From positions 1 through 36,135 of IMG/VR virus record IMGVR_UViG_3300032333_000065: DNA of 36,135 bases. One strand, 5' to 3'. A program made the position numbers and the translations under genes. Of the stretch, positions 15,663 through 34,317 are shown piece by piece; position 1 is the stretch's first letter, and the number at the start of each line of letters is the position of its first letter. The notes beneath the pieces are model-generated. The model saw only the letters and a list, made by a program, of their open reading frames with translations, was not told where the DNA came from and searched no databases. Source of the DNA: a virus.

Positions 15663-16922
15663 TTAGTATCCTGATATTACATCTAAAACTTCGTGATCGT
15701 CTTCTTCGTAGTCTTGCTGGTAGTTAGTCATAGCCAGTTGATCAACGTAAGACAAGGAGTCAATCAAGTCATCGTGAACCCCTGTGGCGGGAAACATAAT
15801 GAACTGATCCTCAAATTGCTTCCAATCCTCATCGACGTTCAAGGAGATACGTCCATGCTCGAAACGACCTTGTAAGGCCCATACGACCCTATCAGTCTTC
15901 TTCTTGTTACCGTGAGTGAGATCGTGGATGTGCGTATACACATTGTTCTTCCTCATCAAGTCTTGAAGGTAGTGCATCACAGCATTCTTCAAGGCTCCTC
16001 GTTCGATACCCACAGCGACAGGTTGATACTCTTTAACAGCTAGGAGGATCTTCGATGCAGTCTCCCTGATGTCCCAACGTCCGTGGATGATCTTCTTGAC
16101 CCACCAGTCACCGTTGTCTAGTATCTTGCAGACAGTGATCGCTGATTCATCCAAGCGTTTCTTAGAGGCTCCCGCGTTCTTAGCGACATCTTCAAAACCC
16201 GCCAAGTCGATAGCGATAACGTAGTCACCGTACTGAGGTTCTTCCTTGTACTTTAACCACTCCTCCTTGAACAGATCTGAACCAGCTGTATCGAAGCTAG
16301 ACAGGTATTCCTGCTTAAAGGCAAAGGAGCTTAGAGTCCTCTCAGCAGCTTCAATCTCCTTAGGATCGATAGTCTCATTATCCTTGGTGGTGAAGTGCCA
16401 TGATTGCCACTCCTCGTCCTTACCCTCTTGTCCTAGGTTGAAGACATCGTAGAACCAGTTACGTCCACTAGGGGTACTGATGAACAAGGCTCTACCCTTC
16501 TTGTCAGACAGGGAAGCTCGAATGATCTTCTGCCACGTGTCTTCTTTGATAAAGGCACATTCGTCTAAGACTACGTAAGTAAGAGATACACCCCGTAGAG
16601 AATCAGGATTATCAGCACCACGTACTAAGATTTTTCTACCGTTGATCAATGTGATCTCTAGGTTATTAACGTGAGATGACTTGATGACTGGTCTACCTAG
16701 GTCAAGTAACAAGTCCCACATAATGGTTCTAGCTTGTCCTAGGGTAGGTGCTATGTACATCACAGCGGAGCCTTCAGGACAGTTCAGAGCCTCTATGAGC
16801 AGGGTTACAGCTGAGAGCCTAGACTTACCACATCGTCGTCCTGCTGCTACGACCTTGAAGCGATGCTTATCAGCGAAGACGGCCTGCTGCCAACGTAGAA
16901 GCTTAAAGTTAAGTTCAGCCAT
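15663..16922 (-). CDS. terL: Terminase large subunit
   Basis: A 419-residue DNA packaging motor. The ATPase has Walker A AAGRRCGKS (26-34), Walker B VVLDE (117-121) and coupling motif STPSG (149-153). The nuclease domain shows IAIDLAG (D239), GIERGA (E307) and HDDLIDSLSY (D384/D385, D388), so all acidic positions appear present. It would pump DNA through the portal and cut concatemers. It is coupled to the small subunit by a TAATG overlap. Shorter than T7 gp19 (586 aa), close to the 420-470 aa of many other families. Confidence 0.92.
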   Translation of the reverse strand: MAELNFKLLRWQQAVFADKHRFKVVAAGRRCGKSRLSAVTLLIEALNCPEGSAVMYIAPTLGQARTIMWDLLLDLGRPVIKSSHVNNLEITLINGRKILVRGADNPDSLRGVSLTYVVLDECAFIKEDTWQKIIRASLSDKKGRALFISTPSGRNWFYDVFNLGQEGKDEEWQSWHFTTKDNETIDPKEIEAAERTLSSFAFKQEYLSSFDTAGSDLFKEEWLKYKEEPQYGDYVIAIDLAGFEDVAKNAGASKKRLDESAITVCKILDNGDWWVKKIIHGRWDIRETASKILLAVKEYQPVAVGIERGALKNAVMHYLQDLMRKNNVYTHIHDLTHGNKKKTDRVVWALQGRFEHGRISLNVDEDWKQFEDQFIMFPATGVHDDLIDSLSYVDQLAMTNYQQDYEEDDHEVLDVISGY

Positions 16923-17778: not shown

Positions 17779-17831
17779 GTTTACCCTTTCAGTAAGGACA
17801 TAGACAGTAAATTGACAAAGACACTATAAAG

Positions 17832-17879
17832 TTACTTTAATGAACTTTAATGAAACTTAATTAAAGAGTATTAAAGTAA
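17832..17879. repeat. AT-rich inverted repeat
   Basis: TTACTTTAAT (17832-17841) and its exact reverse complement ATTAAAGTAA (17870-17879) are 28 bases apart. The flanks extend the match to 14 bases with one mismatch. Further ACTTTAATGAA copies lie between. It sits in the long leader of the leftward transcript. It could be an operator, an unwinding element or an RNA hairpin. Confidence 0.5.
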
Positions 17880-17996
17880 GTTTATAATTATAGAGTAGTA
17901 GTATTATAAATACCACACTATTGCTAATACACCTTGGTGAACACCTTAGTCACCTCGATTGAAACTTTAAAGTCATCCAGTATAACTTCATAGAGA

Positions 17997-18104: not shown

Positions 18105-18148
18105 CTCTATGGCAGTCCTCCTGTGCACACTTTCTAGTCTGCATTAAT

Positions 18149-18164
18149 GTTGTATTAACACAAC
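18149..18164. repeat. Operator-like dyad
   Basis: GTTGTATTAACACAAC has perfect 5-base arms GTTGT/ACAAC around ATTAAC and is nearly self-complementary. Its size is that of a dimeric repressor site, but no regulator is identified. Confidence 0.35.
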
Positions 18165-18284
18165 AGATCTCTAGAGTCTCTATGTCCTTGATCTTTAATG
18201 TCTTTTTAGTTACTTTGTTGTCTTTTCTTCCATGCTCTTTTTTGTGTATTTCAGAGGGTACAGCAAAAGTAATCATCCAAGCAT

Positions 18285-18354: not shown

Positions 18355-18490
18355 TTATCCACAGCTTGTACACATGAGGGGCAATGAAGCACCTAAAATA
18401 AACACCTAAGACCTAAGGGTAAACACCTATCTCCGAAGTTATCCACAAAAGGCTGTCTATAACCTGTGCATAAGTACTGAGTTATCCACA
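18355..18490. other. Cluster of four DnaA boxes (putative origin element)
   Basis: TTATCCACA, the standard high-affinity DnaA box, occurs on the plus strand at 18355-18363, 18439-18447 and 18482-18490. A reverse-orientation match, TTATGCACA, is at 18465-18473. Four matches to TTATNCACA in 136 bases would be very unlikely by chance. Host DnaA binding could start replication or modulate the neighbouring promoter. No phage initiator gene is recognised. Confidence 0.7.
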
Positions 18491-18492
18491 GA

Positions 18493-18509
18493 GTAACCAA
18501 AGTGGTGCA
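18493..18509 (+). promoter_or_regulatory. NtrC-like enhancer site 1 (half-strong)
   Basis: The 17-mer GTAACCAAAGTGGTGCA matches TGCACCA-N3-TGGTGCA perfectly in its right half (7/7) and at 4 of 7 positions in its left half. Its centre lies about 187 bases upstream of the predicted sigma-54 start. Confidence 0.45.
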
Positions 18510-18515
18510 TGAAAG

Positions 18516-18532
18516 TGCATCATTCTAGTGCA
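18516..18532 (+). promoter_or_regulatory. NtrC-like enhancer site 2
   Basis: TGCATCATTCTAGTGCA differs from the NtrC dyad TGCACCA-N3-TGGTGCA at two of 14 fixed positions. Centre about 164 bases upstream of the predicted sigma-54 start. Confidence 0.5.
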
Positions 18533-18545
18533 TGAGTGTCCTTTC

Positions 18546-18562
18546 TGCATCACAATGGTGCA
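18546..18562 (+). promoter_or_regulatory. NtrC-like enhancer site 3 (best match)
   Basis: TGCATCACAATGGTGCA differs from TGCACCA-N3-TGGTGCA at one of 14 fixed positions. Its centre is about 134 bases upstream of the predicted sigma-54 start and 30 bases from site 2, a geometry like that of known NtrC enhancers. Confidence 0.6.
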
Positions 18563-18661: not shown

Positions 18662-18677
18662 TGGCACGGGGCTTGCA
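18662..18677 (+). promoter_or_regulatory. Sigma-54 (RpoN) -24/-12 promoter of the rightward block
   Basis: TGGCACG-GGGC-TTGCA has the invariant GG (18663-18664) and GC (18675-18676) 10 bases apart. Together with the flanking AGAGC before and ATA after, it fits every position of the published extended consensus mrNrYTGGCACG-N4-TTGCWNNw. Predicted start about 18688, 39 bases before the first ATG. This is the only such match I found in the window. It would need host RpoN and an activator ATPase. Confidence 0.8.
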
Positions 18678-18726
18678 ATATACAAAGCATGGCACAGTCG
18701 CCATGTCATCATCTAAGGATCAGATC

Positions 18727-18912
18727 ATGAACCAGACCACTCAGAACCTCTTACAAGAGATCGCACAGACAGGCCACGCTGTCGTCATCATCAGCAAGGC
18801 ACGTGAGGCACAGGCGGCTCACGCGCTCATCAAAGCTGGCATCTGCCACCAGTCCAGCACCCACGATGGCTACGTCATCATCAAGTTCGGTCGTCAGCCA
18901 GTCACCATCTAA
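18727..18912 (+). CDS. First rightward gene, small hypothetical protein (61 aa)
   Basis: Start taken at ATG 18727, preceded by AAGGATCA with a 4-base gap. An in-frame ATG at 18703 lacks a ribosome site. The 61-residue protein reads as a helix, a beta strand (GHAVVIIS), an Ala-rich helix (KAREAQAAHALIKAG) and a final strand (GYVIIKFG), an alpha/beta mini-fold. It is the first gene after the sigma-54 promoter and is followed by a long hairpin. I do not recognise the family. Host-takeover roles are common at this position, but that is inference. Confidence 0.65.
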   Translation: MNQTTQNLLQEIAQTGHAVVIISKAREAQAAHALIKAGICHQSSTHDGYVIIKFGRQPVTI

Positions 18913-18918
18913 AACCGA

Positions 18919-18958
18919 ATGTAGGTATTACTGTACAGAACCACAGTAGTACCTACAT
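18919..18958 (+). repeat. Long RNA hairpin after the first gene
   Basis: Arms 18919-18934 and 18943-18958 pair over 16 positions with a single U-G wobble around an 8-base loop. It starts 6 bases past the stop of the 61-aa gene and ends before the next ribosome site. No U-tract follows, so it is not a simple terminator. A stabiliser, RNase III-type site or binding site is possible. Confidence 0.7.
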
Positions 18959-18981
18959 ACCAAACACAAGGATCACTCACC

Positions 18982-19161
18982 ATGTCGTCAGCATCTTTTC
19001 TCTACCATGACCACCACACCATCACCTTGCATGGTGACAACACAGTCACCTGTGACACCTGTTCACTCCCTTTGACTGTCGCCAATGCGGTGCATTTCAT
19101 GGTGTCTAATAACGTCTATAAATTGATCATTGATGGCGCACCATTGAAGAGAGTCAACTAA
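18982..19161 (+). CDS. Small hypothetical protein with CxxC (59 aa)
   Basis: A 59-residue protein with HDHHTITLHG, then TCDTC (about 23-27) and a beta-rich remainder ending APLKRVN. The His-rich start and single CxxC could bind a metal. AAGGATCA precedes the ATG by 6 bases, as in neighbouring genes, and the next gene starts 1 base after its stop. Family not recognised. Confidence 0.6.
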   Translation: MSSASFLYHDHHTITLHGDNTVTCDTCSLPLTVANAVHFMVSNNVYKLIIDGAPLKRVN

Positions 19162-19162
19162 C

Positions 19163-19387
19163 ATGAAAACAATCATCCATGTGAACCAGCATGCAGTCAG
19201 GCGTAACATCAAGGCCATTGGAGACCCTGAACCAGTGCTGACAGTCAAGACATACAAGACCAACACCTACGCTCACGAGGTCTCTATTGATGGGGCATCA
19301 AGGGTCGTCTACAGTCCACACAAGCCACTCTCATGTGGTGCGCGTGTGTGGATTGAAACTGAGTCACCAGTCACAATCATTAAGTAA
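19163..19387 (+). CDS. Small hypothetical protein (74 aa)
   Basis: A 74-residue basic, beta-rich protein (MKTIIHVNQHAVRRNIKAIG; later VYSPHKPLSCGARVWIET). It begins 1 base after the preceding stop, implying translational coupling, and has no strong ribosome site of its own. Family not recognised. Confidence 0.6.
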   Translation: MKTIIHVNQHAVRRNIKAIGDPEPVLTVKTYKTNTYAHEVSIDGASRVVYSPHKPLSCGARVWIETESPVTIIK

Positions 19388-19401
19388 TAAGGGAAAACAC
19401 T

Positions 19402-19476
19402 ATGTCAACATTCACCGATCGTATTCTATACTGCCTGTACGCCATCGCCATCTTGGTCGTGTGGCTCACCCTGTAA
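19402..19476 (+). CDS. Tiny membrane peptide (24 aa)
   Basis: MSTFTDRIL followed by a hydrophobic segment (YCLYAIAILVVWLTL) forms a single membrane-spanning peptide of 24 residues. AAGGGA lies about 7 bases before the ATG. Very small early membrane peptides are common in phages, but coding here rests only on context and the ribosome site. Confidence 0.45.
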   Translation: MSTFTDRILYCLYAIAILVVWLTL

Positions 19477-19510
19477 TCAACCCTCTCAACTTCTTAAGGA
19501 TCAAGACACC

Positions 19511-19726
19511 ATGACACAAACAGTAAAATCTCAAGACTTCACTTCAATGAAGGGTCATGTCGCTGATGGGTGCATTGTTATCGCACCTAGTGGCAAACAG
19601 TTCACCATCAAAAACACAATGAAAGGTTGGCAGGTCTTAGGCTCTGATGGTCTGCCTGTCACAGGTAATCTGTCGTCAGCGTTTGACGTAGAATATTTCG
19701 TTGTTAATGGGCTCTGGTCTCATTAA
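19511..19726 (+). CDS. Small hypothetical protein (71 aa)
   Basis: A 71-residue, beta-rich protein containing GCIVIAPSGKQFTIKNTMKG and GWQVLGSDGLP, ending in an aromatic tail. It is preceded by AAGGATCA 7 bases before the ATG. The layout looks like a compact beta-barrel or SH3-like domain. Family not recognised. Confidence 0.6.
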   Translation: MTQTVKSQDFTSMKGHVADGCIVIAPSGKQFTIKNTMKGWQVLGSDGLPVTGNLSSAFDVEYFVVNGLWSH

Positions 19727-19762
19727 TCAACCATCAATTAACTTTCTAAGGATCAGAACATC

Positions 19763-20032
19763 ATGCAAGCTATACACACCAAATATATCCCTGCGACTGA
19801 CACCAAAGCCGCTAAGATCAAAGCCTACAATGAAAGCCATCCAAGGGGCGTGACTGTCTCCATTGATTACGATTTGAACGATGTAGGTCGTCACTTCAAA
19901 GCCGCTCAGGAATTCGTAAAAATTAAGCTTTCCGTTGATCAATTAGCGCCTACCATGGCCTATGGTGGCTCTGCCGATGGTAGGGGCTACGTCTTTTGTT
20001 TTGTGGATTCACTCATAACTTTGGAGGTCTGA
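19763..20032 (+). CDS. Conserved hypothetical protein (89 aa)
   Basis: An 89-residue protein starting MQAIHTKYIPATDTKAAKIK, then a helix (GRHFKAAQEFVKIKL) and a glycine-rich end containing GGSADGRGYVFCF. Proteins with the pattern AI-TKY-PATDT-..-RIKA and a final GYVF are frequent in proteobacterial phages and plasmids without known function. AAGGATCA precedes the ATG by 7 bases. Confidence 0.65.
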   Translation: MQAIHTKYIPATDTKAAKIKAYNESHPRGVTVSIDYDLNDVGRHFKAAQEFVKIKLSVDQLAPTMAYGGSADGRGYVFCFVDSLITLEV

Positions 20033-20035
20033 ACC

Positions 20036-20191
20036 ATGTCATATTATCAATACGAAATCAATCGCCTTGGTGATGCACCAAAGTCCGCAGACCTGAAACT
20101 ACAGAATGAACACGGGGAAACTCGTTGGATGAATGTATCGCCTGAGCAGATCGAGGCTATCTTGGCAATCTTGAAACAATCGGAGGATTGA
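20036..20191 (+). CDS. Small hypothetical protein (51 aa)
   Basis: A 51-residue protein (MSYYQYEINRLGDAPKSADL) with a C-terminal helix SPEQIEAILAILKQSED. TTGGAGG lies about 9 bases before the ATG, inside the end of the previous gene, and the next gene follows after 3 bases. Family not recognised. Confidence 0.6.
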   Translation: MSYYQYEINRLGDAPKSADLKLQNEHGETRWMNVSPEQIEAILAILKQSED

Positions 20192-20194
20192 ATC

Positions 20195-20464
20195 ATGTCA
20201 GTCTACACTATACGTCACGGCTCTATTGCGGCAGTTCAATGGGTAACTTTGCCCGATGGCTTAGAAGTCTCTGTGACTGATGCTAAGGACGGCTCAGAAC
20301 TGCGACTGCCTCGATTGCCTTTAGAGGTTCAAGCGGCAGTTAATCGACAATTTGGCACTATCTTCTCCCTGCCTTATGGTATGCGTGAGCAGTTTATTAA
20401 GGACTCTGTTCCGTTCACAGTAGAAGTACCTGACGAAGTGACACAGGAGGCCGACCAATGCTAA
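20195..20464 (+). CDS. Small hypothetical protein (89 aa)
   Basis: An 89-residue protein with a beta-rich half (VYTIRHGSIAAVQWVTLPDG) and a helical half (LPLEVQAAVNRQFGTIF). CGGAGG lies 9 bases before the ATG. It overlaps the next gene by 7 bases. Family not recognised. Confidence 0.6.
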   Translation: MSVYTIRHGSIAAVQWVTLPDGLEVSVTDAKDGSELRLPRLPLEVQAAVNRQFGTIFSLPYGMREQFIKDSVPFTVEVPDEVTQEADQC

Positions 20465-20703
20465 ACAATAATGATTTTATCGCTCTTGAACGCCGATTAT
20501 GGCGCGAAGGGAACCCATTATGTGACGAATTAGTGTCAACACGGGATGAACTGCTACATCTCTTGTCAGTATCTAAGAAGATACTACAAAAGTACTCACC
20601 AGTAATCAATGAATTGTCAACAGTAGATGATCTCGAATTCTTTAGAGAATGGGATAACTTCGGGGACACTTTGGACAATTTAACCTACCATATGGGAGAA
20701 TGA
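20458..20703 (+). CDS. Small helical hypothetical protein (81 aa)
   Basis: An 81-residue, mainly helical and acidic protein (FIALERRLWREGNPLCDELV; DDLEFFREWDNFGDTL). AGGAGG is about 8 bases before the ATG, within the previous gene. Family not recognised. Confidence 0.6.
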   Translation: MLNNNDFIALERRLWREGNPLCDELVSTRDELLHLLSVSKKILQKYSPVINELSTVDDLEFFREWDNFGDTLDNLTYHMGE

Positions 20704-20707
20704 CACT

Positions 20708-20950
20708 ATGACAGAATTAGAATTTGAGACTAAATTTGACAATGGCGACTTAGATTGTGCCTATTGTGATTTTATTTGTGATCGCTATGATGCAATCAAT
20801 AAAGAGCATATGCTGCGACTATGGGAGGATGATGGGGTATTTGCTGACTTTAAAGATTCAATGGTAACTACTGTGGTAGAAAAACAACAGTATTCTCTTG
20901 GGCCTAACCCATTAGATAAATTCCCATCTATGTGGGGGACACCTAAATGA
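20708..20950 (+). CDS. Small acidic hypothetical protein (80 aa)
   Basis: An 80-residue acidic protein with CAYCDFICDRYDAINKEHML (about 17-36), whose three Cys could bind metal, then LRLWEDDGVFADFKDSMV. It starts 4 bases after the previous stop. Helical acidic proteins of this shape can mimic DNA, but there is no direct evidence for that here. Confidence 0.6.
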   Translation: MTELEFETKFDNGDLDCAYCDFICDRYDAINKEHMLRLWEDDGVFADFKDSMVTTVVEKQQYSLGPNPLDKFPSMWGTPK

Positions 20951-21009
20951 CATTTATGATCATAGTTTTCTATACAATCGATTTAATTGTGGAGCATGAC
21001 CTATGGTAA
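20947..21009 (+). CDS. Tiny hydrophobic peptide (20 aa)
   Basis: A 20-residue reading frame (MTFMIIVFYTIDLIVEHDLW) coupled to the previous gene by an ATGA overlap and overlapping the following ATG. Hydrophobic and probably membrane-bound if made. Support is limited to the coupled start and stop. Confidence 0.35.
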   Translation: MTFMIIVFYTIDLIVEHDLW

Positions 21010-21146
21010 ACCCTAAGCCTGACCCTTATTGGCCTTTCCCGTCTGAAGTGCCACCTAAGCCTTGGGCACCTGAGGAAGTTAAACAATACGAGAAGTTACA
21101 AAGGCAGCAAGTACCAGATGCGCCAATGGTGCTAGGGCTTGTTTAA
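21003..21146 (+). CDS. Small Pro-rich peptide (47 aa)
   Basis: A 47-residue, Pro- and Trp-rich peptide (MVNPKPDPYWPFPSEVPPKP then WAPEEVKQYEKLQRQQ). It starts inside the end of the 20-aa frame, so coupling is likely. No ribosome site of good quality. Family not recognised. Confidence 0.45.
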   Translation: MVNPKPDPYWPFPSEVPPKPWAPEEVKQYEKLQRQQVPDAPMVLGLV

Positions 21147-21205
21147 TCGATCAGGAAGACACTTAAAACCATCAACTAAGGGCTAGATAGCCAAAGGGGT
21201 AAATA

Positions 21206-21472
21206 ATGCATTGTAGCTGTTGTGATAGATTACTGACTGCGTTTGAATCTACTCGTCGTAATGCTAATACTTTTCAGTTCATTGACCTTTGTAAGGTCTG
21301 TTTTGAGGATGTGAAGCCTTTTGTGCCTACCATCGACAGGGCTGACTTGATAACTGAGGCTGATCTCGATGAGGAACCAGATGAGAATGACAATCTGAAC
21401 ACAGGGGATTCCCTAGAAGACATTGAGACACTATATAGCTATGTAGTAGACTCTAGAGACTTAGATGATTAA
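21206..21472 (+). CDS. Small zinc-ribbon protein (88 aa)
   Basis: An 88-residue protein starting MHCSCCDRLLTAFESTRR, with a second pair CKVC (about 29-32): a four-Cys ribbon typical of small early proteins in T7-like phages. The second half is very acidic (DEEPDENDN). AAAGGGG precedes the ATG. A nucleic-acid or host-protein binding role is plausible but unproven. Confidence 0.7.
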   Translation: MHCSCCDRLLTAFESTRRNANTFQFIDLCKVCFEDVKPFVPTIDRADLITEADLDEEPDENDNLNTGDSLEDIETLYSYVVDSRDLDD

Positions 21473-21477
21473 GAGAT

Positions 21478-21557
21478 CATTAAAGTCATTAAAGCTACAT
21501 TATTGTAGTATTCTTATTGTTATTACTATATAAAGTAATACATTAAAGTCATTAAAG
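21478..21557 (+). promoter_or_regulatory. Repeat-flanked internal promoter region
   Basis: CATTAAAGTCATTAAAG occurs exactly at 21478-21494 and again at 21541-21557. Between them lie two small hairpins (21495-21508 and 21521-21540). A sigma-70-like pair, TTGTTA (21517-21522) and TACATT (21539-21544) with a 16-base spacer, points to the 53-aa gene. Confidence 0.5.
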
Positions 21558-21571
21558 ACAAAGGGGGAATC

Positions 21572-21733
21572 ATGGAAGAAATTGTAACTCAACACGAAGA
21601 TGATTATGTCTTGTTACAAAAAGAATCACATTACGTATACACGATTAATGCTTTTGTGGAATTGATTGTTGAATACGGGTGGGATAAAGTAACGTCTGAT
21701 CTAAGGACAGCCATGGGTAACAAAACATGGTAA
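21572..21733 (+). CDS. Small hypothetical protein (53 aa)
   Basis: A 53-residue acidic helical protein (MEEIVTQHEDDYVLLQKESH; INAFVELIVEYGWDKVTSDL). AGGGGG lies a few bases before the ATG. It is the first gene after the repeat-flanked promoter region. Family not recognised. Confidence 0.6.
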   Translation: MEEIVTQHEDDYVLLQKESHYVYTINAFVELIVEYGWDKVTSDLRTAMGNKTW

Positions 21734-21746
21734 ACGGAGTGTCCGT

Positions 21747-21803
21747 ATGGTGATGGCATTGATTGTCTTTGTCTTAACTTTAATCAAAGTGTCACTTAAG
21801 TGA
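21747..21803 (+). CDS. Possible tiny membrane peptide (18 aa)
   Basis: An 18-residue hydrophobic frame (MVMALIVFVLTLIKVSLK) with GGAG about 8 bases upstream. It fills the space between two better-supported genes. Single membrane segment with a basic end. Weak support. Confidence 0.3.
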   Translation: MVMALIVFVLTLIKVSLK

Positions 21804-21829
21804 CAACAACATCGAAAGGGTATTTTTAT

Positions 21830-22039
21830 ATGTCTGGTACAGCAACATTAACTTATGACTTGTCTAAACCTGAGCAGATCATGGCTCACAAGTATGCTCT
21901 GAAGGGCTTAGAAGCCTGTCAGATGCTCGAAAGTCTCAAGGCAGCAACGGCTGGCTACCAAGCCTACAAAGGCCTCTCTGAGAGCGTTCTAGCGGACATT
22001 ATCGCTGACTTGTCTAAGTGGGAGGATGTTAAGTTATGA
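21830..22039 (+). CDS. Small helical hypothetical protein (69 aa)
   Basis: Start taken at ATG 21830, preceded by GAAAGGG, rather than the in-frame GTG at 21800. The protein (MSGTATLTYDLSKPEQIMAH) has a short beta start followed by helices rich in Ala and Leu (KALKGLEACQML-like). It couples to the next frame by ATGA. Such proteins are frequent in the early region of T7-like phages; function unknown. Confidence 0.6.
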   Translation: MSGTATLTYDLSKPEQIMAHKYALKGLEACQMLESLKAATAGYQAYKGLSESVLADIIADLSKWEDVKL

Positions 22040-22098
22040 GCGTACTAAATTACATTCTCAATCTCTTGTTACCAACAAGACGGGAGCATAAACAATGA
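22036..22098 (+). CDS. Tiny peptide (20 aa)
   Basis: A 20-residue frame (MSVLNYILNLLLPTRREHKQ) with a hydrophobic start and basic end, linked at both ends by ATGA overlaps to its neighbours. Short, but the double coupling argues that ribosomes pass through it. Confidence 0.4.
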   Translation: MSVLNYILNLLLPTRREHKQ

Positions 22099-22256
22099 TA
22101 AAGACAGTACTAGCACCCAATGCACCATGGCCTAAGTGGGTTGAACCACCTGCTAAAGCAACTAAACGTACAAAACGAGCGAAGCCTAGCGAAGTAGACG
22201 CTAAGTTTGAACAATGGTTACAGGAGAACACACATGGTATCACTAGACGGCGGTAA
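22095..22256 (+). CDS. Small basic hypothetical protein (53 aa)
   Basis: A 53-residue basic protein (MIKTVLAPNAPWPKWVEPPA, then a Lys/Arg-rich middle and a helical end FEQWLQENTHG). ATGA overlap with the preceding frame and 23-base overlap with the next gene. Family not recognised. Confidence 0.5.
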   Translation: MIKTVLAPNAPWPKWVEPPAKATKRTKRAKPSEVDAKFEQWLQENTHGITRRR

Positions 22257-22515
22257 AGGCTCTGCAAGGCGTAAGGAAGACGCACAAGCAGTTCGAGATA
22301 ACTGGGACAGAATCTTTGGTAAGAAGAAAGAAACACCTATGATTGATGAAGACGATGACATTGACAATGACGAACGTGATCACGACGAGGAAGACGATAG
22401 TGAGTGGTGCTGTGATCGGTGTGGTGGCCCGATGTACAGACAACCTCATTGGGGTTATGCACGATGTGACGATTGCGGTGCGAGACAGGAGCTAATCAAT
22501 GACGACTACACTTAA
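22234..22515 (+). CDS. Zinc-ribbon protein before the primase (93 aa)
   Basis: Start taken at ATG 22234, 8 bases after AGGAG; a longer TTG-started reading is unlikely. The N-terminus MVSLDGGKGSARR...DNWDRIFGKK is a pattern repeated in the T7-like early region. A very acidic linker (DEDDDIDNDE) follows, then a four-Cys ribbon CCDRCGGPM...CDDCGA. It overlaps the primase-helicase start by 17 bases. A role with the replisome is plausible from position only. Confidence 0.65.
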   Translation: MVSLDGGKGSARRKEDAQAVRDNWDRIFGKKKETPMIDEDDDIDNDERDHDEEDDSEWCCDRCGGPMYRQPHWGYARCDDCGARQELINDDYT

Positions 22516-24112
22516 GGTAGCCTCTAAGTTCATCAAGCACGTAGAATGTTCCCATTGTGGTAGCAGTGACGCTAATGGGCTATACGATGATGGACACCAA
22601 TACTGCTTCGCCTGTAACAACTATGCAACAGGGGACGGAGATAGCATTACTAGTGTCAGCAGCAGACCACAAACAACGAAAGTATTTACAATGAAGACAC
22701 AAGGGGAAGTGAAGGCCATAGTGGACAGGGGTATCTCAAAGGATACATGTGAGTTCTTCGGTGTCACACAGGAGACAGGGAAGCACTACTACCCTTATTT
22801 CGATGAAACAGGCGCTAAAGTAGCTGAAAAGATCCGATCTGTAGAGAACAAGACATTCTCCATTGCAGGGAATTTCAACAAAGCTACTCTCTTTGGACAG
22901 TCTTTGTTTCAGAAAGAGGGTAAGTATATCACCATTGTCGAGGGTGAACTAGACGCACTTGCAAGCTACCAAATGACCGGATCAAAATGGCCTACTGTGA
23001 GCATCCGTAATGGAGCTTCAGCGGCTGTTAAAGACTGCAAGGCTCAGTATGAGTACCTAGATAGCTTCGAGACTATCGTGATCTGCTTCGATGCCGATGA
23101 GGTGGGACAGAAGGCAGCTAAGGATGTAGCTGAACTCTTCGGGAACAAGGTTAAAATATTCAAACACTTGAAAGGATTTAAAGATGCCTGCGATTATTTA
23201 TCTAACGGACGAGGAAGCGAATACGTTAACCAATGGTGGCGCAGTGAGTCGTACGTACCAGATGGGATCATCCAAGCCTCAACACTTTGGGACAGCGTAT
23301 CTGCACCTGAGCCAGTCGCTGAAGCCTTCTATCCGTTCAAAGGCCTTAACGAACTTCTATACGGTCTACGAAGCGCTGAACTCATTACAGTCACAGCTGG
23401 ATCAGGCCTTGGAAAGAGTCAGTTCCTTAGAGAAATCTTGTATCAGATACTCCGAACAACAAGCTGGTCAATCGGCGGTATGTTTCTGGAGGAGTCAGTG
23501 CGAAAGACTGCCAGATCAATTATGTCACTGCAAGCAAACAAAAAGCTGCACCTACCCGATACAGAAGTCACAGAACGAGAATTGAAGGAGGCCTTCGATG
23601 CTACTCTTGGTACTAATCGTGTCTTTCTCTTTGACCATTTTGGCTCTCTTGCCATTGACAATGTTCTTAACCGCATCCGTTACATGGCACGTGCCTGTGA
23701 TTGTCGTGTTGTTTTTCTTGACCATATCAGCCTCGTTGTCTCTGGTATGGATGGGAATGATGAGCGCAAGTCTATTGATGTCTTGATGACTCGACTGCGT
23801 ACGTTGGTACAGGAGACAGGTATTACCTTGATCTGTGTATCTCACTTGAAACGACCTAGCACTGACAAAGGACATGAAGATGGTTCAGCGGTATCCTTAT
23901 CTCAGCTACGTGGCTCTGGTGCTATCGCTCAGTTGTCTGACGCTGTTATCACTCTGGAGCGTAACTCCATGAGTCCTGATCCAAGTATTCGTAATCTCAC
24001 TAAGGTTGCTGTTGCAAAGAACAGGTACAACGGTTTAAGTGGCCCTGCTTGTAATCTGATGTACGATATGCAGACAGGCAGGATGATTGAAGTAACAATG
24101 GAGGAGCTATGA
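22499..24112 (+). CDS. DNA primase-helicase (T7 gp4-like)
   Basis: A 537-residue bifunctional replication enzyme. The primase zinc finger uses Cys 17, 20, 36 and 39. The Toprim domain shows VEGELDA (147-153) and FDAD (197-200). The helicase domain has Walker A AGSGLGKS (300-307), Walker B VVFLD (404-408) and motif VSHLKRP (about 448-454). Length is close to T7 gp4 (566 aa). It would unwind DNA and lay primers for the polymerase encoded downstream. It is coupled to the next gene by ATGA. Confidence 0.93.
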   Translation: MTTTLKVASKFIKHVECSHCGSSDANGLYDDGHQYCFACNNYATGDGDSITSVSSRPQTTKVFTMKTQGEVKAIVDRGISKDTCEFFGVTQETGKHYYPYFDETGAKVAEKIRSVENKTFSIAGNFNKATLFGQSLFQKEGKYITIVEGELDALASYQMTGSKWPTVSIRNGASAAVKDCKAQYEYLDSFETIVICFDADEVGQKAAKDVAELFGNKVKIFKHLKGFKDACDYLSNGRGSEYVNQWWRSESYVPDGIIQASTLWDSVSAPEPVAEAFYPFKGLNELLYGLRSAELITVTAGSGLGKSQFLREILYQILRTTSWSIGGMFLEESVRKTARSIMSLQANKKLHLPDTEVTERELKEAFDATLGTNRVFLFDHFGSLAIDNVLNRIRYMARACDCRVVFLDHISLVVSGMDGNDERKSIDVLMTRLRTLVQETGITLICVSHLKRPSTDKGHEDGSAVSLSQLRGSGAIAQLSDAVITLERNSMSPDPSIRNLTKVAVAKNRYNGLSGPACNLMYDMQTGRMIEVTMEEL

Positions 24113-24658: not shown

Positions 24659-25126
24659 ATGAAACGCAAAGAAGATGTAGATCACAAGGTATGTTCAAAG
24701 TGCGGGATAGACAAACCAATTAAAGATTATTGGAAAAGGGGATCCCCACGAAAAGACGGTACATACGCTTATAGAGATTATTGCAAAGAATGTGGAATAG
24801 CTTCACGTTTGCATATCTATCACAATGAAGGAGGTAAACAAAAACAAAAAGAACGTTCTTTTAAGCATAACATGAAACGTTATGGCATAACTCCTGAAAT
24901 TTACAAAGAACTTCACGAGAATCAGCAAGGAAAGTGTGCTATTTGCGAATCAGAAACTGTGTCAAGATCACGAGCAACTTACAATCTGTTTGTCGATCAC
25001 TGCCATACAACTGGGAAAGTGAGGGGCTTATTGTGCCATCATTGTAATGCGGGTTTAGGTTATTTCAAAGACAACGAAAAAACGCTTCAGAAAGCTATTG
25101 AGTATCTAAATGAGAATCGCTCTTGA
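24659..25126 (+). CDS. Free-standing recombination endonuclease VII-type nuclease
   Basis: A 155-residue nuclease. Cys 12, 15, 42 and 45 form an N-terminal zinc finger. The core CAIC (93-96), VDHCHTTGKVRGLLCHHCN (112-130) and GLGYFKDN is the endonuclease VII/HNH fold typical of homing or junction-cutting enzymes. It is AT- and Lys-rich compared with its neighbours, has its own promoter, and its last 17 bases overlap the polymerase start. These features fit an inserted mobile gene. Confidence 0.85.
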   Translation: MKRKEDVDHKVCSKCGIDKPIKDYWKRGSPRKDGTYAYRDYCKECGIASRLHIYHNEGGKQKQKERSFKHNMKRYGITPEIYKELHENQQGKCAICESETVSRSRATYNLFVDHCHTTGKVRGLLCHHCNAGLGYFKDNEKTLQKAIEYLNENRS

Positions 25127-26840
25127 TATAGAAACCACTATGGATCATGAAACTATTCATCTTTGCGTGACGCAGGATATAGATAGTAAAGAAGTCCGAG
25201 TGTGGAAAAAACCAGAAGGATTATGGGAGTATTTAAAAAACGCTTCAATAATCGTATCTCATAACGGTATAAATTTTGACTTTCCGATCTTAAACAAGCT
25301 CTGGAAGACCAAGATTGGACTGAAGCAAGCATACGACACACTCGTAGTGTCAAGGCTGATAGAGCCAACGAGGGACGGAGGTCACAGCCTAGACGCATGG
25401 GGAAAGACTCTCGGAACGGAGAAGATTGACTACAAGGCAACGTGGCAGTGGATGATGAACAGAAGGGAAGACTATGATGGGGAATGCTTTGATAAGCCTA
25501 TTGATTCCTTGCTTGAGTTTTATTGCTCTCGTGATGTGTTTGTGTTATGCAATCTATACAAAAGACTTTCCGATGATTGTACAAATCTTGGGTTTTCTTC
25601 TGATAGCGTCGATCTTGAATTTAGAGTAGCCTCTATCATAAACAAGCAAGAGAAGAATGGATTCAAACTAGACACCATTCACGCTACGTGCTTACTAGCT
25701 GAACTCAAGGGGAAGATGAGTGCCATCAATGACAAAATGCAGGATCTCTATCCACCATATGAGGTTGAGCGCATCTCTGAAAAGACAGGGAAGGTTCTCA
25801 AGCCTGAAGTGGTGGTATTCAATCCAGCTAGTAGACAACAAATAGCTGAGAAGCTCATTGGCCTTGGGTGGAAACCTAAGAAGTTCACTGAGCCTACAGC
25901 TAACTACCCACAAGGTCAGGCTATTGTCGATGAAGCTGTGTTGATGTCTCTGAAGTATCCTATCGCTCAGTTGATCGCTGAGTACATGATGCTCGGTAAA
26001 CGTATCGCTCAGATTGAATCGTGGTTAGAGGTCGTAGGAGCTGATGGTAGGGTACACGGTAGAGTCATCACCAACGGAGCTGTAACAGGCCGTATGACTC
26101 ACATGAAGCCTAACATGGCTCAGATCCCTAACTCAGGTTCACCCTATGGCCCTGAATGTCGTCAGTGCTGGACGGTTGAGGAAGGTAACGTATTGGTTGG
26201 AGCTGACGCTAGTGGCTTAGAGCTTCGGATGTTAGCCCATTACATGAAGGATGAGAAGTATGTCAAGACAGTCACCGAGGGAAGCTCTAAGGACGGAACG
26301 GATGTCCACACGGTTAATCAGAAAGCAGCCGGACTACAAACACGTGACCAAGCGAAGACGTTCATCTATGCGTTCCTCTACGGTGCAGGGCCAGCGAAGA
26401 TTGGCTCGATTGTCGGTGGTAGTGCTAGTGCTGGACAGAAGCTCATCGATGCCTTTCTTAAAGGGACTCCCTCGTTGCAGCGTCTACGTGATAAAGTATC
26501 CGTATATGCGTCCGAGGGCTATGTACCGGGGCTTGATGGTCGCAAGATTTGGGTTCGCAGTGAACATGCGGCACTCAATAGCTTACTTCAAGGCGCAGGT
26601 GCAATCGTTATGAAGAAAGCTCTCGTGATCTTAGATGAGAAGTTTAGACGTAACAAGATTGACGCTAAGTTCACAGCTAATGTTCACGATGAGTGGCAGA
26701 TAGAGTGTTCACCAGACGTAGCTGACACAGTTGGCAAAGCTGCTGTACAATCAATCAGAGAAGCTGGATTAGCGTATAATCTACGATGTCCTCTAGATGG
26801 GGAATACAAGGTTGGTAAGAACTGGAAGGAAACCCATTGA
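25110..26840 (+). CDS. Family A DNA polymerase (T7-like)
   Basis: A 576-residue replicative polymerase. The 3'-5' exonuclease has DIET (D6, E8), HNGINFD (51-57) and YCSRD (138-142). The polymerase motifs are A VGADASGLELR (D366), B RDQAKTFIYAFLYG (R412, K416, Y420, Y424) and C HDE (526-528). Motif B is nearly identical to T7's, and Tyr 420 corresponds to T7 Tyr 526. It is about 130 residues shorter than T7 gp5 (704), which may mean that the thioredoxin-binding insertion in the thumb is missing. The start overlaps the nuclease gene. Confidence 0.93.
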   Translation: MRIALDIETTMDHETIHLCVTQDIDSKEVRVWKKPEGLWEYLKNASIIVSHNGINFDFPILNKLWKTKIGLKQAYDTLVVSRLIEPTRDGGHSLDAWGKTLGTEKIDYKATWQWMMNRREDYDGECFDKPIDSLLEFYCSRDVFVLCNLYKRLSDDCTNLGFSSDSVDLEFRVASIINKQEKNGFKLDTIHATCLLAELKGKMSAINDKMQDLYPPYEVERISEKTGKVLKPEVVVFNPASRQQIAEKLIGLGWKPKKFTEPTANYPQGQAIVDEAVLMSLKYPIAQLIAEYMMLGKRIAQIESWLEVVGADGRVHGRVITNGAVTGRMTHMKPNMAQIPNSGSPYGPECRQCWTVEEGNVLVGADASGLELRMLAHYMKDEKYVKTVTEGSSKDGTDVHTVNQKAAGLQTRDQAKTFIYAFLYGAGPAKIGSIVGGSASAGQKLIDAFLKGTPSLQRLRDKVSVYASEGYVPGLDGRKIWVRSEHAALNSLLQGAGAIVMKKALVILDEKFRRNKIDAKFTANVHDEWQIECSPDVADTVGKAAVQSIREAGLAYNLRCPLDGEYKVGKNWKETH

Positions 26841-31947: not shown

Positions 31948-33845
31948 CAACAATGACACCCTACCAGACCTACATAGCGAAAAGCAGATATTCACGCTAC
32001 TTGGACGATAAAGGTCGCCGTGAACACTGGCACGAGACAACTAAACGCTACTTTGACTTCATGGAGAGTCACCTAAGTGACAAGCATAACTACACTTTGA
32101 CACCTGAGTTGCGTAGCCGCTTAGAGAATGCAGTGATCAACTTGGACGTTATGCCCTCGATGCGCTCAATCATGACCTCAGGTGAGGCTCTGGAGCGTCA
32201 GAACGTAGCTGGCTATAACTGTTCATTCCTGCCCATCGATGACCCTAAAGCCTTCGATGAGGCTATGTACATCCTCCTGTGTGGTACAGGTGTAGGTTTC
32301 TCTGTGGAGCGTAAGTATGTCAACCGTTTACCTGAAATTCCTGAGAAGCTTTATGAGTCTAATACTGTGGTTCACGTTAAAGACTCCAAGGAAGGATGGG
32401 CTAAGGCGCTACGACAGGTCATGGCACTCCTATGGGCTGGAGAAGTCCCTAAGTGGGATGTCTCTGCTGTGCGTCCTGCTGGTACACGCCTCAAGACCTT
32501 CGGGGGTCGTGCGAGTGGCCCAGAGCCGTTGGTCGAACTCTTTAAGTACGTGGTCGCTAAGTTTAAAGCTGCCCAAGGCCGCAAGCTCTTCTCGATTGAA
32601 GCACATGATATTCTCTGTAAGATTGGAGAAGTTGTGGTTGTCGGTGGAGTTCGTCGATCAGCAATGATCTCTCTGTCTGACTTAGACGATGATCGTATGG
32701 CTCACGCTAAAGCTGGTAACTGGTGGGACGGAAATGGTCAACGTGCCTTAGCTAACAATTCAGCTGTGTACGATGTCAAGCCCGATGTGGGTCAATTCAT
32801 GCGAGAGTGGAGCAATATCTATGAAAGTCATTCAGGAGAGCGTGGCATTTTTAACCGCTATGCGTCTGAGATTCAAGCGTCTAAGAATGGTCGTCGTGTA
32901 CTCGGTAAAGAATGGGGTACTAACCCTTGTTCTGAAATCATTCTCCGGCCTTACCAATTTTGCAACCTCAGTTCAGTTATTGTGCGTTCGGGGGATACAC
33001 TGGAGTCTCTTAAAGAAAAAGTCGCTATTGCGACAATCTTGGGAACCTTCCAATCGACCTTAACTAGCTTCCCGTACCTGCGTAAGGTGTGGCAGACTAA
33101 CACTGAGGAAGAGCGTTTGTTGGGTGTCTCCATGACTGGTATCCTAGACAATACATTGCTAAACAATGCTTACGACAAGGATCTACCAGCACGTTTGGAG
33201 GAGCTGAAGAATGTTGCTGTGGATACTAATAAGTCTCTTGCTGCTGAACTTGGCATCAATGCTTCTGCTGCAATCACCTGCGTCAAACCCGAAGGTACGG
33301 TTAGCCAGCTTACTGGTACTGCTAGTGGCATTCATCCTCAACACAGTGCTTATTTCATTCGTCGTGTACGCTCTGATGCCAAAGATCCGCTTACTCAGTT
33401 CTTGAAGGATGCTGGATTTCCTTGGGAGCCTTGTGTGATGAAGCCTGAGTCAACAGCTATCTTCTCCTTCCCGATGAAGACACCTGAGGGTGCTCGTCTA
33501 CGTGAGGACTTGTCAGCTATTGAACACTTGGACTTGTGGTTGACATTCCAGCGCCACTGGTGTGAACATAAGCCTTCAGTGACCATCTCAGTCAATGAGA
33601 ATGAGTGGCCTAAGGTAGGAGCGTGGACATGGGAGAACTTTGATGAGATTACTGGAGTTTCGTATCTGCCGATGGATGGTGGAAGTTACAGGCAAGCACC
33701 TTATTCCTCTTGTACCAAAGAAGAGTATGAGGAAGCCCTTGCTTTGACACCTACGGCAATCGACTGGGAAGCCATGAAAGAAGCCACCGATAATGTCGAA
33801 GGAGCCCAAACCTTAGCTTGCGTGGCAGGAATCTGTGAGCTTTAA
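31944..33845 (+). CDS. nrdJ: Class II (adenosylcobalamin-dependent) ribonucleotide reductase, monomeric
   Basis: A 633-residue reductase that makes dNTPs from ribonucleotides without oxygen or a second subunit. The redox pair is C93 (YNCSF) and C340. The radical cysteine is C329 in NPCSE, with N327 and E331. Their 11-residue spacing equals that of C408/C419 in the Lactobacillus leichmannii enzyme. The tail C626-x4-C631 (CVAGIC) matches its C731/C736 shuttle. It depends on host cobalamin. The downstream HNH gene begins 11 bases before its stop, over the end of the shuttle motif. Confidence 0.93.
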   Translation: MTTMTPYQTYIAKSRYSRYLDDKGRREHWHETTKRYFDFMESHLSDKHNYTLTPELRSRLENAVINLDVMPSMRSIMTSGEALERQNVAGYNCSFLPIDDPKAFDEAMYILLCGTGVGFSVERKYVNRLPEIPEKLYESNTVVHVKDSKEGWAKALRQVMALLWAGEVPKWDVSAVRPAGTRLKTFGGRASGPEPLVELFKYVVAKFKAAQGRKLFSIEAHDILCKIGEVVVVGGVRRSAMISLSDLDDDRMAHAKAGNWWDGNGQRALANNSAVYDVKPDVGQFMREWSNIYESHSGERGIFNRYASEIQASKNGRRVLGKEWGTNPCSEIILRPYQFCNLSSVIVRSGDTLESLKEKVAIATILGTFQSTLTSFPYLRKVWQTNTEEERLLGVSMTGILDNTLLNNAYDKDLPARLEELKNVAVDTNKSLAAELGINASAAITCVKPEGTVSQLTGTASGIHPQHSAYFIRRVRSDAKDPLTQFLKDAGFPWEPCVMKPESTAIFSFPMKTPEGARLREDLSAIEHLDLWLTFQRHWCEHKPSVTISVNENEWPKVGAWTWENFDEITGVSYLPMDGGSYRQAPYSSCTKEEYEEALALTPTAIDWEAMKEATDNVEGAQTLACVAGICEL

Positions 33846-34317
33846 CTTAGCTTGCCCTACTTGCGGTAAAGACAGGGAGTTCTCTAGAAAGTCAGCTTTA
33901 AATACAGCTGAAAAGAAAGGAACTTCTTGTTTTTCTTGTCGTTCAGTGGCTAACAACATTAAACGTACAGGAACTAAAACTAAAGAAAAGAATCCTGCTT
34001 GGAAAGGTTTTGGTGTAGTTCCCGGTAAAGTCTTCAGCAAACTTAAACGAGATGCTGAAAGGCGTAATCTACCTTTTGAAATAACTATTGAAGACCTTGC
34101 TCATCAATACAGTAAACAAAAGGAACGATGTGCTTTTACAGGCTTTGAAATCTTTTTCGGTATTGATGCGTCTGTAGATAGGATCGACAGCTCAAAAGGC
34201 TATACAACAGACAACATTCAAATCGTTCATAAGATTCTCAATATAATGAAACGTGATCTACCTAACGACGAGTTTATTCTGTGGTGTAGGTCTGTATACA
34301 TTCATAACTATGAGTAA
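33835..34317 (+). CDS. HNH-type endonuclease after nrdJ
   Basis: A 160-residue protein starting at GTG 33835, overlapping nrdJ by 11 bases. Zinc-finger Cys 7, 10, 32 and 35, a basic linker, then CAFTGFEI (99-106), VDRIDSSKGYTTDNIQIVH (114-132) and a C-terminal helix. The DRID...N pattern is of HNH nucleases of the His-Me superfamily, although the first His is not evident. Unlike three of the other nucleases it has no visible promoter and so depends on read-through from nrdJ. Confidence 0.75.
   Translation: MSFNLACPTCGKDREFSRKSALNTAEKKGTSCFSCRSVANNIKRTGTKTKEKNPAWKGFGVVPGKVFSKLKRDAERRNLPFEITIEDLAHQYSKQKERCAFTGFEIFFGIDASVDRIDSSKGYTTDNIQIVHKILNIMKRDLPNDEFILWCRSVYIHNYE

Follow-up and report, generated by a model that had tools for sequence, protein, structure and literature searches.

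In the glnAp2-type architecture an NtrC enhancer is combined with a sigma-54 promoter, and phosphorylated NtrC is the activator. Promoters of the sigma-54 type, which in bacteria are kept for nitrogen starvation and stresses like it, are silent until an activator spends ATP, and this gives a tight off state. Phages of the kind considered here usually start with sigma-70 promoters or with a polymerase of their own. NtcA, another regulator relevant to what follows, is a CRP-type activator with sites of the form GTA-N8-TAC. The published consensus for E. coli NtrC is the 17-bp dyad TGCACCA-N3-TGGTGCA (PMC8743547), and marine T4-like cyanophages carry predicted NtcA sites, through which their promoters would exploit this nitrogen-stress regulator of the host (PMC3037559).

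The DNA analyzed here (the window) is a virus record of 36,135 bases from an uncultured phage: a podovirus-like genome with two divergent halves. The leftward half carries late genes (terminase, portal, head and fibre); the rightward half carries replication genes (T7-type primase-helicase, family A polymerase and, 3′ of the polymerase as far as position 33845, methylase, exonuclease, endonuclease and class II ribonucleotide reductase). A non-coding region of ∼925 bases separates the two halves and contains three NtrC-like dyads upstream of a sigma-54 promoter. We put at roughly 0.7 the probability that these form an NtrC enhancer and promoter that switch on the rightward early/replication operon under host nitrogen shortage; judged from sequence, NtrC control of phage replication appears well supported.

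Organization of the control region

Features are given in window coordinates, with strand where one applies.

15663–16922, minus strand: large terminase gene of the divergent late operon
17825–17886: A+T-rich imperfect inverted repeat (arms of 30 nt, 83%) separating the late operon from the sigma-70 promoter
18024–17997, minus strand: perfect sigma-70 promoter, TTGACA-N16-TATAAT, reading left into HNH, terminase and late genes
18148–18165: palindrome TGTTG-N8-CAACA, which recurs in the control regions of relatives
18355–18363, plus strand: perfect DnaA box, TTATCCACA
18439–18447, plus strand: perfect DnaA box, kept in class A relatives (see below) at −223 from the sigma-54 element
18482–18490, plus strand: perfect DnaA box abutting dyad 3, kept in class A at −180
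18493–18509: NtrC-like dyad 3, GTAACCAAAGTGGTGCA, three mismatches with a perfect right half, centre ∼−187
18516–18532: NtrC-like dyad 2, TGCATCATTCTAGTGCA, two mismatches, centre ∼−164
18546–18562: NtrC-like dyad 1, TGCATCACAATGGTGCA, one mismatch, centre ∼−134
18662–18676, plus strand: sigma-54 promoter −24/−12 element, TGGCACggggcTTGC (TGGCACGGGGCTTGC), predicted start ∼18688
18703–22515, plus strand: leader operon made up of small early ORFs, most of which match no family; it follows the sigma-54 promoter directly, and its first ORF has its ATG at 18703 or 18727
22499–24112, plus strand: T7-type primase-helicase gene
25110–26840, plus strand: family A DNA polymerase gene

The intergenic order from left to right is thus the A+T-rich inverted repeat, the leftward sigma-70 promoter, the TGTTG-N8-CAACA palindrome, the three DnaA boxes, the three dyads and the sigma-54 element. 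Mismatches were scored against the E. coli NtrC consensus; on this scale dyads 1 and 2 are the top two matches across the whole window. The sigma-54 element is a perfect TGGCAC-N5-TTGC that has the conserved GG-N10-GC and is itself conserved; when both strands of the 36-kb record were scanned for TGGC[AC]C-N5-TTGC it was the single match, with ∼0.06 expected per genome by chance. Taking its GC as −13/−12 sets the start at ∼18688, from which the dyad centres were counted. An NtrC enhancer would comprise at least two dyads with a 3-bp gap some 80–200 bases upstream, and three are found.

The initial annotation had described one 17-mer with one mismatch, a second with two and a third with a perfect half, lying about 134, 164 and 187 bases upstream of the predicted start of a sigma-54 promoter, and had suggested that the phosphorylated NtrC of a host starved of nitrogen activates phage replication genes. 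As far as sequence can tell, this interpretation is supported. A consensus scan returned the same sites, the distances came to the same values on recomputation, the promoter downstream of the dyads proved to be a perfect element unique in the genome, and the operon beyond it encodes replication proteins. The three DnaA boxes and the leftward sigma-70 promoter are additions to that description.

The dyads and promoter of the window are far beyond chance. Dinucleotide shuffles of the 925-base intergenic region (n = 2000) produced a dyad with at most one mismatch in 0.05% of cases and a pair or trio in none (0/2000), and whole-genome shuffles (n = 300) likewise gave none. The DnaA boxes are the only three perfect ones in the whole genome, a number reached in 0 of 100 shuffles. 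The leftward sigma-70 element recurs at ∼−560 to −680 in many relatives, and the A+T-rich inverted repeat at 17825–17886 is possibly an unwinding element or an operator. The TGTTG-N8-CAACA palindrome is ∼14-fold denser in the control regions of relatives than elsewhere; it is also present in L019, L024, L020, L117 (9000–9037), L123 (4200–4237) and L166, a set that includes unrelated phages.

For the rightward replication operon there is no convincing sigma-70 promoter by simple scan, which returned weak 9/12 sites only, at 19353 and 19405; a second early promoter of the sigma-70 type may have been overlooked by a scan of this kind. Rightward sigma-70 sites obtained under a looser rule, ∼700 bases or more upstream of the sigma-54 element, were not counted as evidence. 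The GC-skew minimum, at ∼19.5–20 kb, may reflect gene orientation only. A match in 33835–34317 to the ‘decoy of host sigma70’ and Srd families was discounted because endonuclease VII scores higher.

Dyads and promoter in relatives and in other phages

Relatives were drawn from IMG/VR, 80 by way of the primase and further ones by way of a divergent member. The set used for counting consists of 43 loci (the window and 42 relatives) in which a sigma-54 promoter is kept before the T7-type primase-helicase gene. What qualified a locus was a sigma-54 match lying as far from the primase as expected, dyads playing no part in the choice; matches that fell within a coding sequence or had no DNA upstream of them, L012 and L029 for example, were excluded. 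Across these loci, which are mutually related, so that counts are not independent events and variety of layout is the better measure, the zone from −230 to −80 holds 67 dyads with up to three mismatches: 10.4/kb, against 0.060/kb in 614 kb of background (173-fold). With up to two mismatches the figures are 39 in the zone and three in the 614 kb. The 3-bp gap accounts for all 67, against no more than eight at any other spacer of 0–9 bp (spacers of 10–11 bp give higher counts, probably from neighbouring sites), and 300 permuted palindromes reached at most nine in the zone. Outside a group of eight loci designated class E, a dyad with up to three mismatches is present in 33 of 35 promoter-bearing loci, and the remaining two (L019 and L052) have four-mismatch sites.

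Class A relatives can be aligned to the window along the entire element, their dyads starting at −169, −146 and −116 from the start of the sigma-54 element, which takes the form TTGGCAY/CTGGCAY-N5-TTGCAATA. The right arm of dyad 1 (TGGTGCA) shows no variation among the class A relatives that are in register, and a TAACYA-N3-TNGTGCA-like form of dyad 3 is retained across the class. Dyad arms and promoter core are better conserved than the 3-bp spacers and the interval between dyads 2 and 1, in figures that include L124, whose enhancer is shifted by ∼4 bases and lowers the arm values. Other layouts are −145/−124/−104 with ∼21-bp phasing (class B), −202/−171/−150 (class C), −165/−113 (class D) and −210/−193/−180 (L006); L038 and L040 combine class A-like dyads with TGGCAC-N5-TAGC, in which GG and GC stand at the right distance. 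At least five layouts, with dyads from ∼−88 to −210, are what would be expected of an enhancer. Conservation in relatives had been suggested at the outset as a check, and the dyads had been placed in the range used by NtrC enhancers: dyads and sigma-54 promoter are co-conserved across the family, and the distance between them stays within range while the layout changes.

Class B loci (L018, L020, L026, L032, L039, L044, L046 and L049) also have, a few bases from the first dyad, another sigma-54-like element that points leftward, TGGCAT-N5-TTGC, whose spacer varies.

The family has exceptions. Class E (L059, L066, L067, L074, L077, L088, L095 and L098) has the sigma-54 promoter and no dyad; the corresponding zone (∼−80 to −230 from the sigma-54 element) holds 12 perfect TGTC-N8-GACA palindromes over the eight loci, in tandem. 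This suggests that the NtrC dyads were exchanged for another type of enhancer, TGTC-N8-GACA being a possible site for a different activator. Its spacing is that of TGT-N10-ACA, the NifA-type site; identity with NifA is not claimed. A sister branch (L105, L106, L109, L111 and L113; primase ∼72–73% identical) has neither dyad cluster nor sigma-54 promoter, and several of its members retain DnaA boxes. Because class E lacks the dyads and the sister branch lacks both elements, NtrC/sigma-54 control is not essential family-wide. A broader reading, which we offer tentatively and at somewhat less than even odds, is that in this lytic clade the replication operon is strictly dependent on host sigma-54, that lineages swap enhancer sites, most having NtrC dyads and some having TGTC-N8-GACA sites for another activator, and that replication would be held back until a particular stress signal arises in the host.

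Beyond the family, an IMG/VR-wide pattern search for dyad plus sigma-54 element returned 6 and 18 contigs, against 0 for a permuted dyad. Distant relatives (L120 and L121; terminase 53–56% identical) have perfect or one-mismatch dyads ∼60–130 bases from a sigma-54 element, and in the L120 group a dyad with at most one mismatch occurs in the equivalent region in only 4 of 46 loci. In an unrelated T7-like lineage (L117 and L123) such perfect or one-mismatch dyads likewise accompany a sigma-54 element, here next to the terminase gene; Lau218, a named relative of L117, has no dyads and no sigma-54 element. The early region of Lau218 (L133, KJ183192) contains a Fur-box-like GCGAATGATTATCATTTAG at ∼2748–2765.

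A large, separate second lineage (L087 and others) has dyads with at most one mismatch upstream of the terminase gene in 43 of 56 loci, a canonical sigma-54 element being present in only 10 of those 43. Since dyads in this lineage mostly lack the canonical element, a dyad alone is no proof of sigma-54 activation, and the case for the window rests on the tight link between dyads and promoter within its own family. The second-lineage arrays, which may serve host regulators as operators or decoys, include L087 (1100–1960), L084 (5050–5830), L082 (2570–2950), L150, L156, L162, L166, L180, L190, L198 and L207; several also hold Fur-box-like aatgataatgattatcattt, gtgagtactcac-type palindromes and tttcacattgtgaaa. 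A further contig, GC-rich, packs 13 TGGCAC-N5-TTGC elements into a stretch of under 1 kb, with both strands represented, and has three dyads as well (L086, 7749–8719).

The activator and rival readings

A profile search of the phage for a sigma-54 activator (Sigma54_activat, PF00158) found none, so the activator would have to come from the host. As to the host, the phage has no tRNA genes from which to assign one, and comparison of the primase with genome contigs found no relative. Terminase relatives are spread over nine bins from unrelated phyla; the closest, 68% identical, belongs to the bin of an uncultured betaproteobacterium, a match too weak to name a host; because related phage contigs sit in bins of unrelated phyla, binning is unreliable here. 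In the betaproteobacterial bin an ntrC gene is clearly present, as are three one-mismatch dyads (0 with a reversed control), one of which adjoins genes read as urease.

The GTGCA repeats might instead be iterons or operators of a replication origin, bound by a replication protein of phage or host, with the sigma-54 element incidental and the DnaA boxes and A+T-rich stretch forming the rest of the origin. DnaA boxes do indeed cluster close to A+T-rich DNA: three perfect boxes adjoin the dyads (two have positions that are fixed in class A), the inverted repeat at 17825–17886 is A+T-rich, and several GTGCAT half-sites share one orientation. The half-sites are nevertheless spaced specifically as 3-bp dyads, and in place of regular direct repeats there are inverted pairs at irregular spacing (GTGCAT at 18505, 18515, 18528 and 18558); no initiator gene was recognized near them. 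Dyads and DnaA boxes are moreover separable, because in class B, which keeps the dyads, perfect DnaA boxes are mostly missing from the region (L018 has the only one) and the 72–73% sister branch has DnaA boxes without dyads or sigma-54 element. Since sister phages keep the boxes without the dyads, the dyads are probably not iterons; they also track the sigma-54 promoter through changes of layout, and perfect dyads stand beside sigma-54 elements in unrelated lineages. The possibility that the repeats would turn out to be iterons, named by the initial annotation as a ground for giving up its reading, did not hold, given the dyad arrangement and this separability, and we regard this iteron reading, with an incidental sigma-54 element, as distinctly improbable.

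It is unlikely, too, that the promoter is real and the dyads are read by some other host enhancer-binding protein with an NtrC-like site, the signal then not being nitrogen. The palindromes at the same place in class E do indicate that the family may use other activators as well, but in its arms as in its 3-bp gap the dyad is the 17-bp consensus published for NtrC (PMC8743547), and the betaproteobacterial bin combines ntrC with its three one-mismatch dyads, one beside putative urease genes. Least probable, and in our view remote, is that the dyads are decoys or repressor operators, titrating or responding to a host regulator without activating a promoter. Second-lineage arrays of dyads with at most one mismatch would fit such a role, being mostly without a canonical sigma-54 element and lying beside Fur-box-like and other palindromes; against it, dyads with up to three mismatches lie at enhancer distance in 33 of the 35 promoter loci outside class E, a set chosen by the sigma-54 element, so that only the dyad count is a test.

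For an NtrC enhancer acting on the sigma-54 promoter the following course can be proposed. Direct results are the elements and their conservation together, the lack of an activator encoded by the phage, and the replication genes downstream; from these we infer NtrC as the binder, nitrogen status as the signal, and looping with ring assembly as the means. Host sigma-54 RNA polymerase would wait at TGGCACggggcTTGC (18662) as a closed complex; phosphorylated NtrC of the host would bind the dyads at −187, −164 and −134, assemble an ATPase ring and, with looping of the DNA, open the promoter; expression of the replication genes would thus follow nitrogen shortage in the host. The DnaA boxes may couple transcription to replication.

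Comparison with known systems

A near-identity search in named phages gave two trivial matches only, and the control region had no match among them. Pelagibacter HTVC and Roseobacter CRP podoviruses are among the nearest named relatives by primase-helicase (44–49%), and more distantly by portal. The initial annotation knew of no described phage system of this kind. For NtrC and sigma-54 this stands in open-access PMC papers, in which we found no description of a phage promoter or operon so driven; it does not stand for nitrogen regulators at large, since the cyanophage NtcA sites, already predicted (PMC3037559), are the nearest precedent for phage use of a host nitrogen regulator.

If the NtrC reading is correct, a lytic phage responds to nitrogen starvation of its host through NtrC-coupled replication, and the timing of phage multiplication may be set by the nitrogen sensor of the host itself. 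The outcome of infection would be tied to nutrient status, and nitrogen control of infection would be directly testable. Enhancer types exchanged between close relatives would form a natural record of how phages retune themselves to the signals of their hosts.

Unlike the cyanophage NtcA sites, the arrangement in the window involves a promoter that depends on sigma-54 together with an enhancer-binding protein that hydrolyses ATP, and this promoter heads a replication operon. The likeness is to the glnAp2 type of E. coli, with 17-bp TGCACCA-N3-TGGTGCA dyads upstream of TGGCAC-N5-TTGC and phosphorylated NtrC as the activator proposed here. It differs from that type in that the genes under the window's promoter serve phage replication and not nitrogen assimilation, its dyads are weaker, and DnaA boxes adjoin them.
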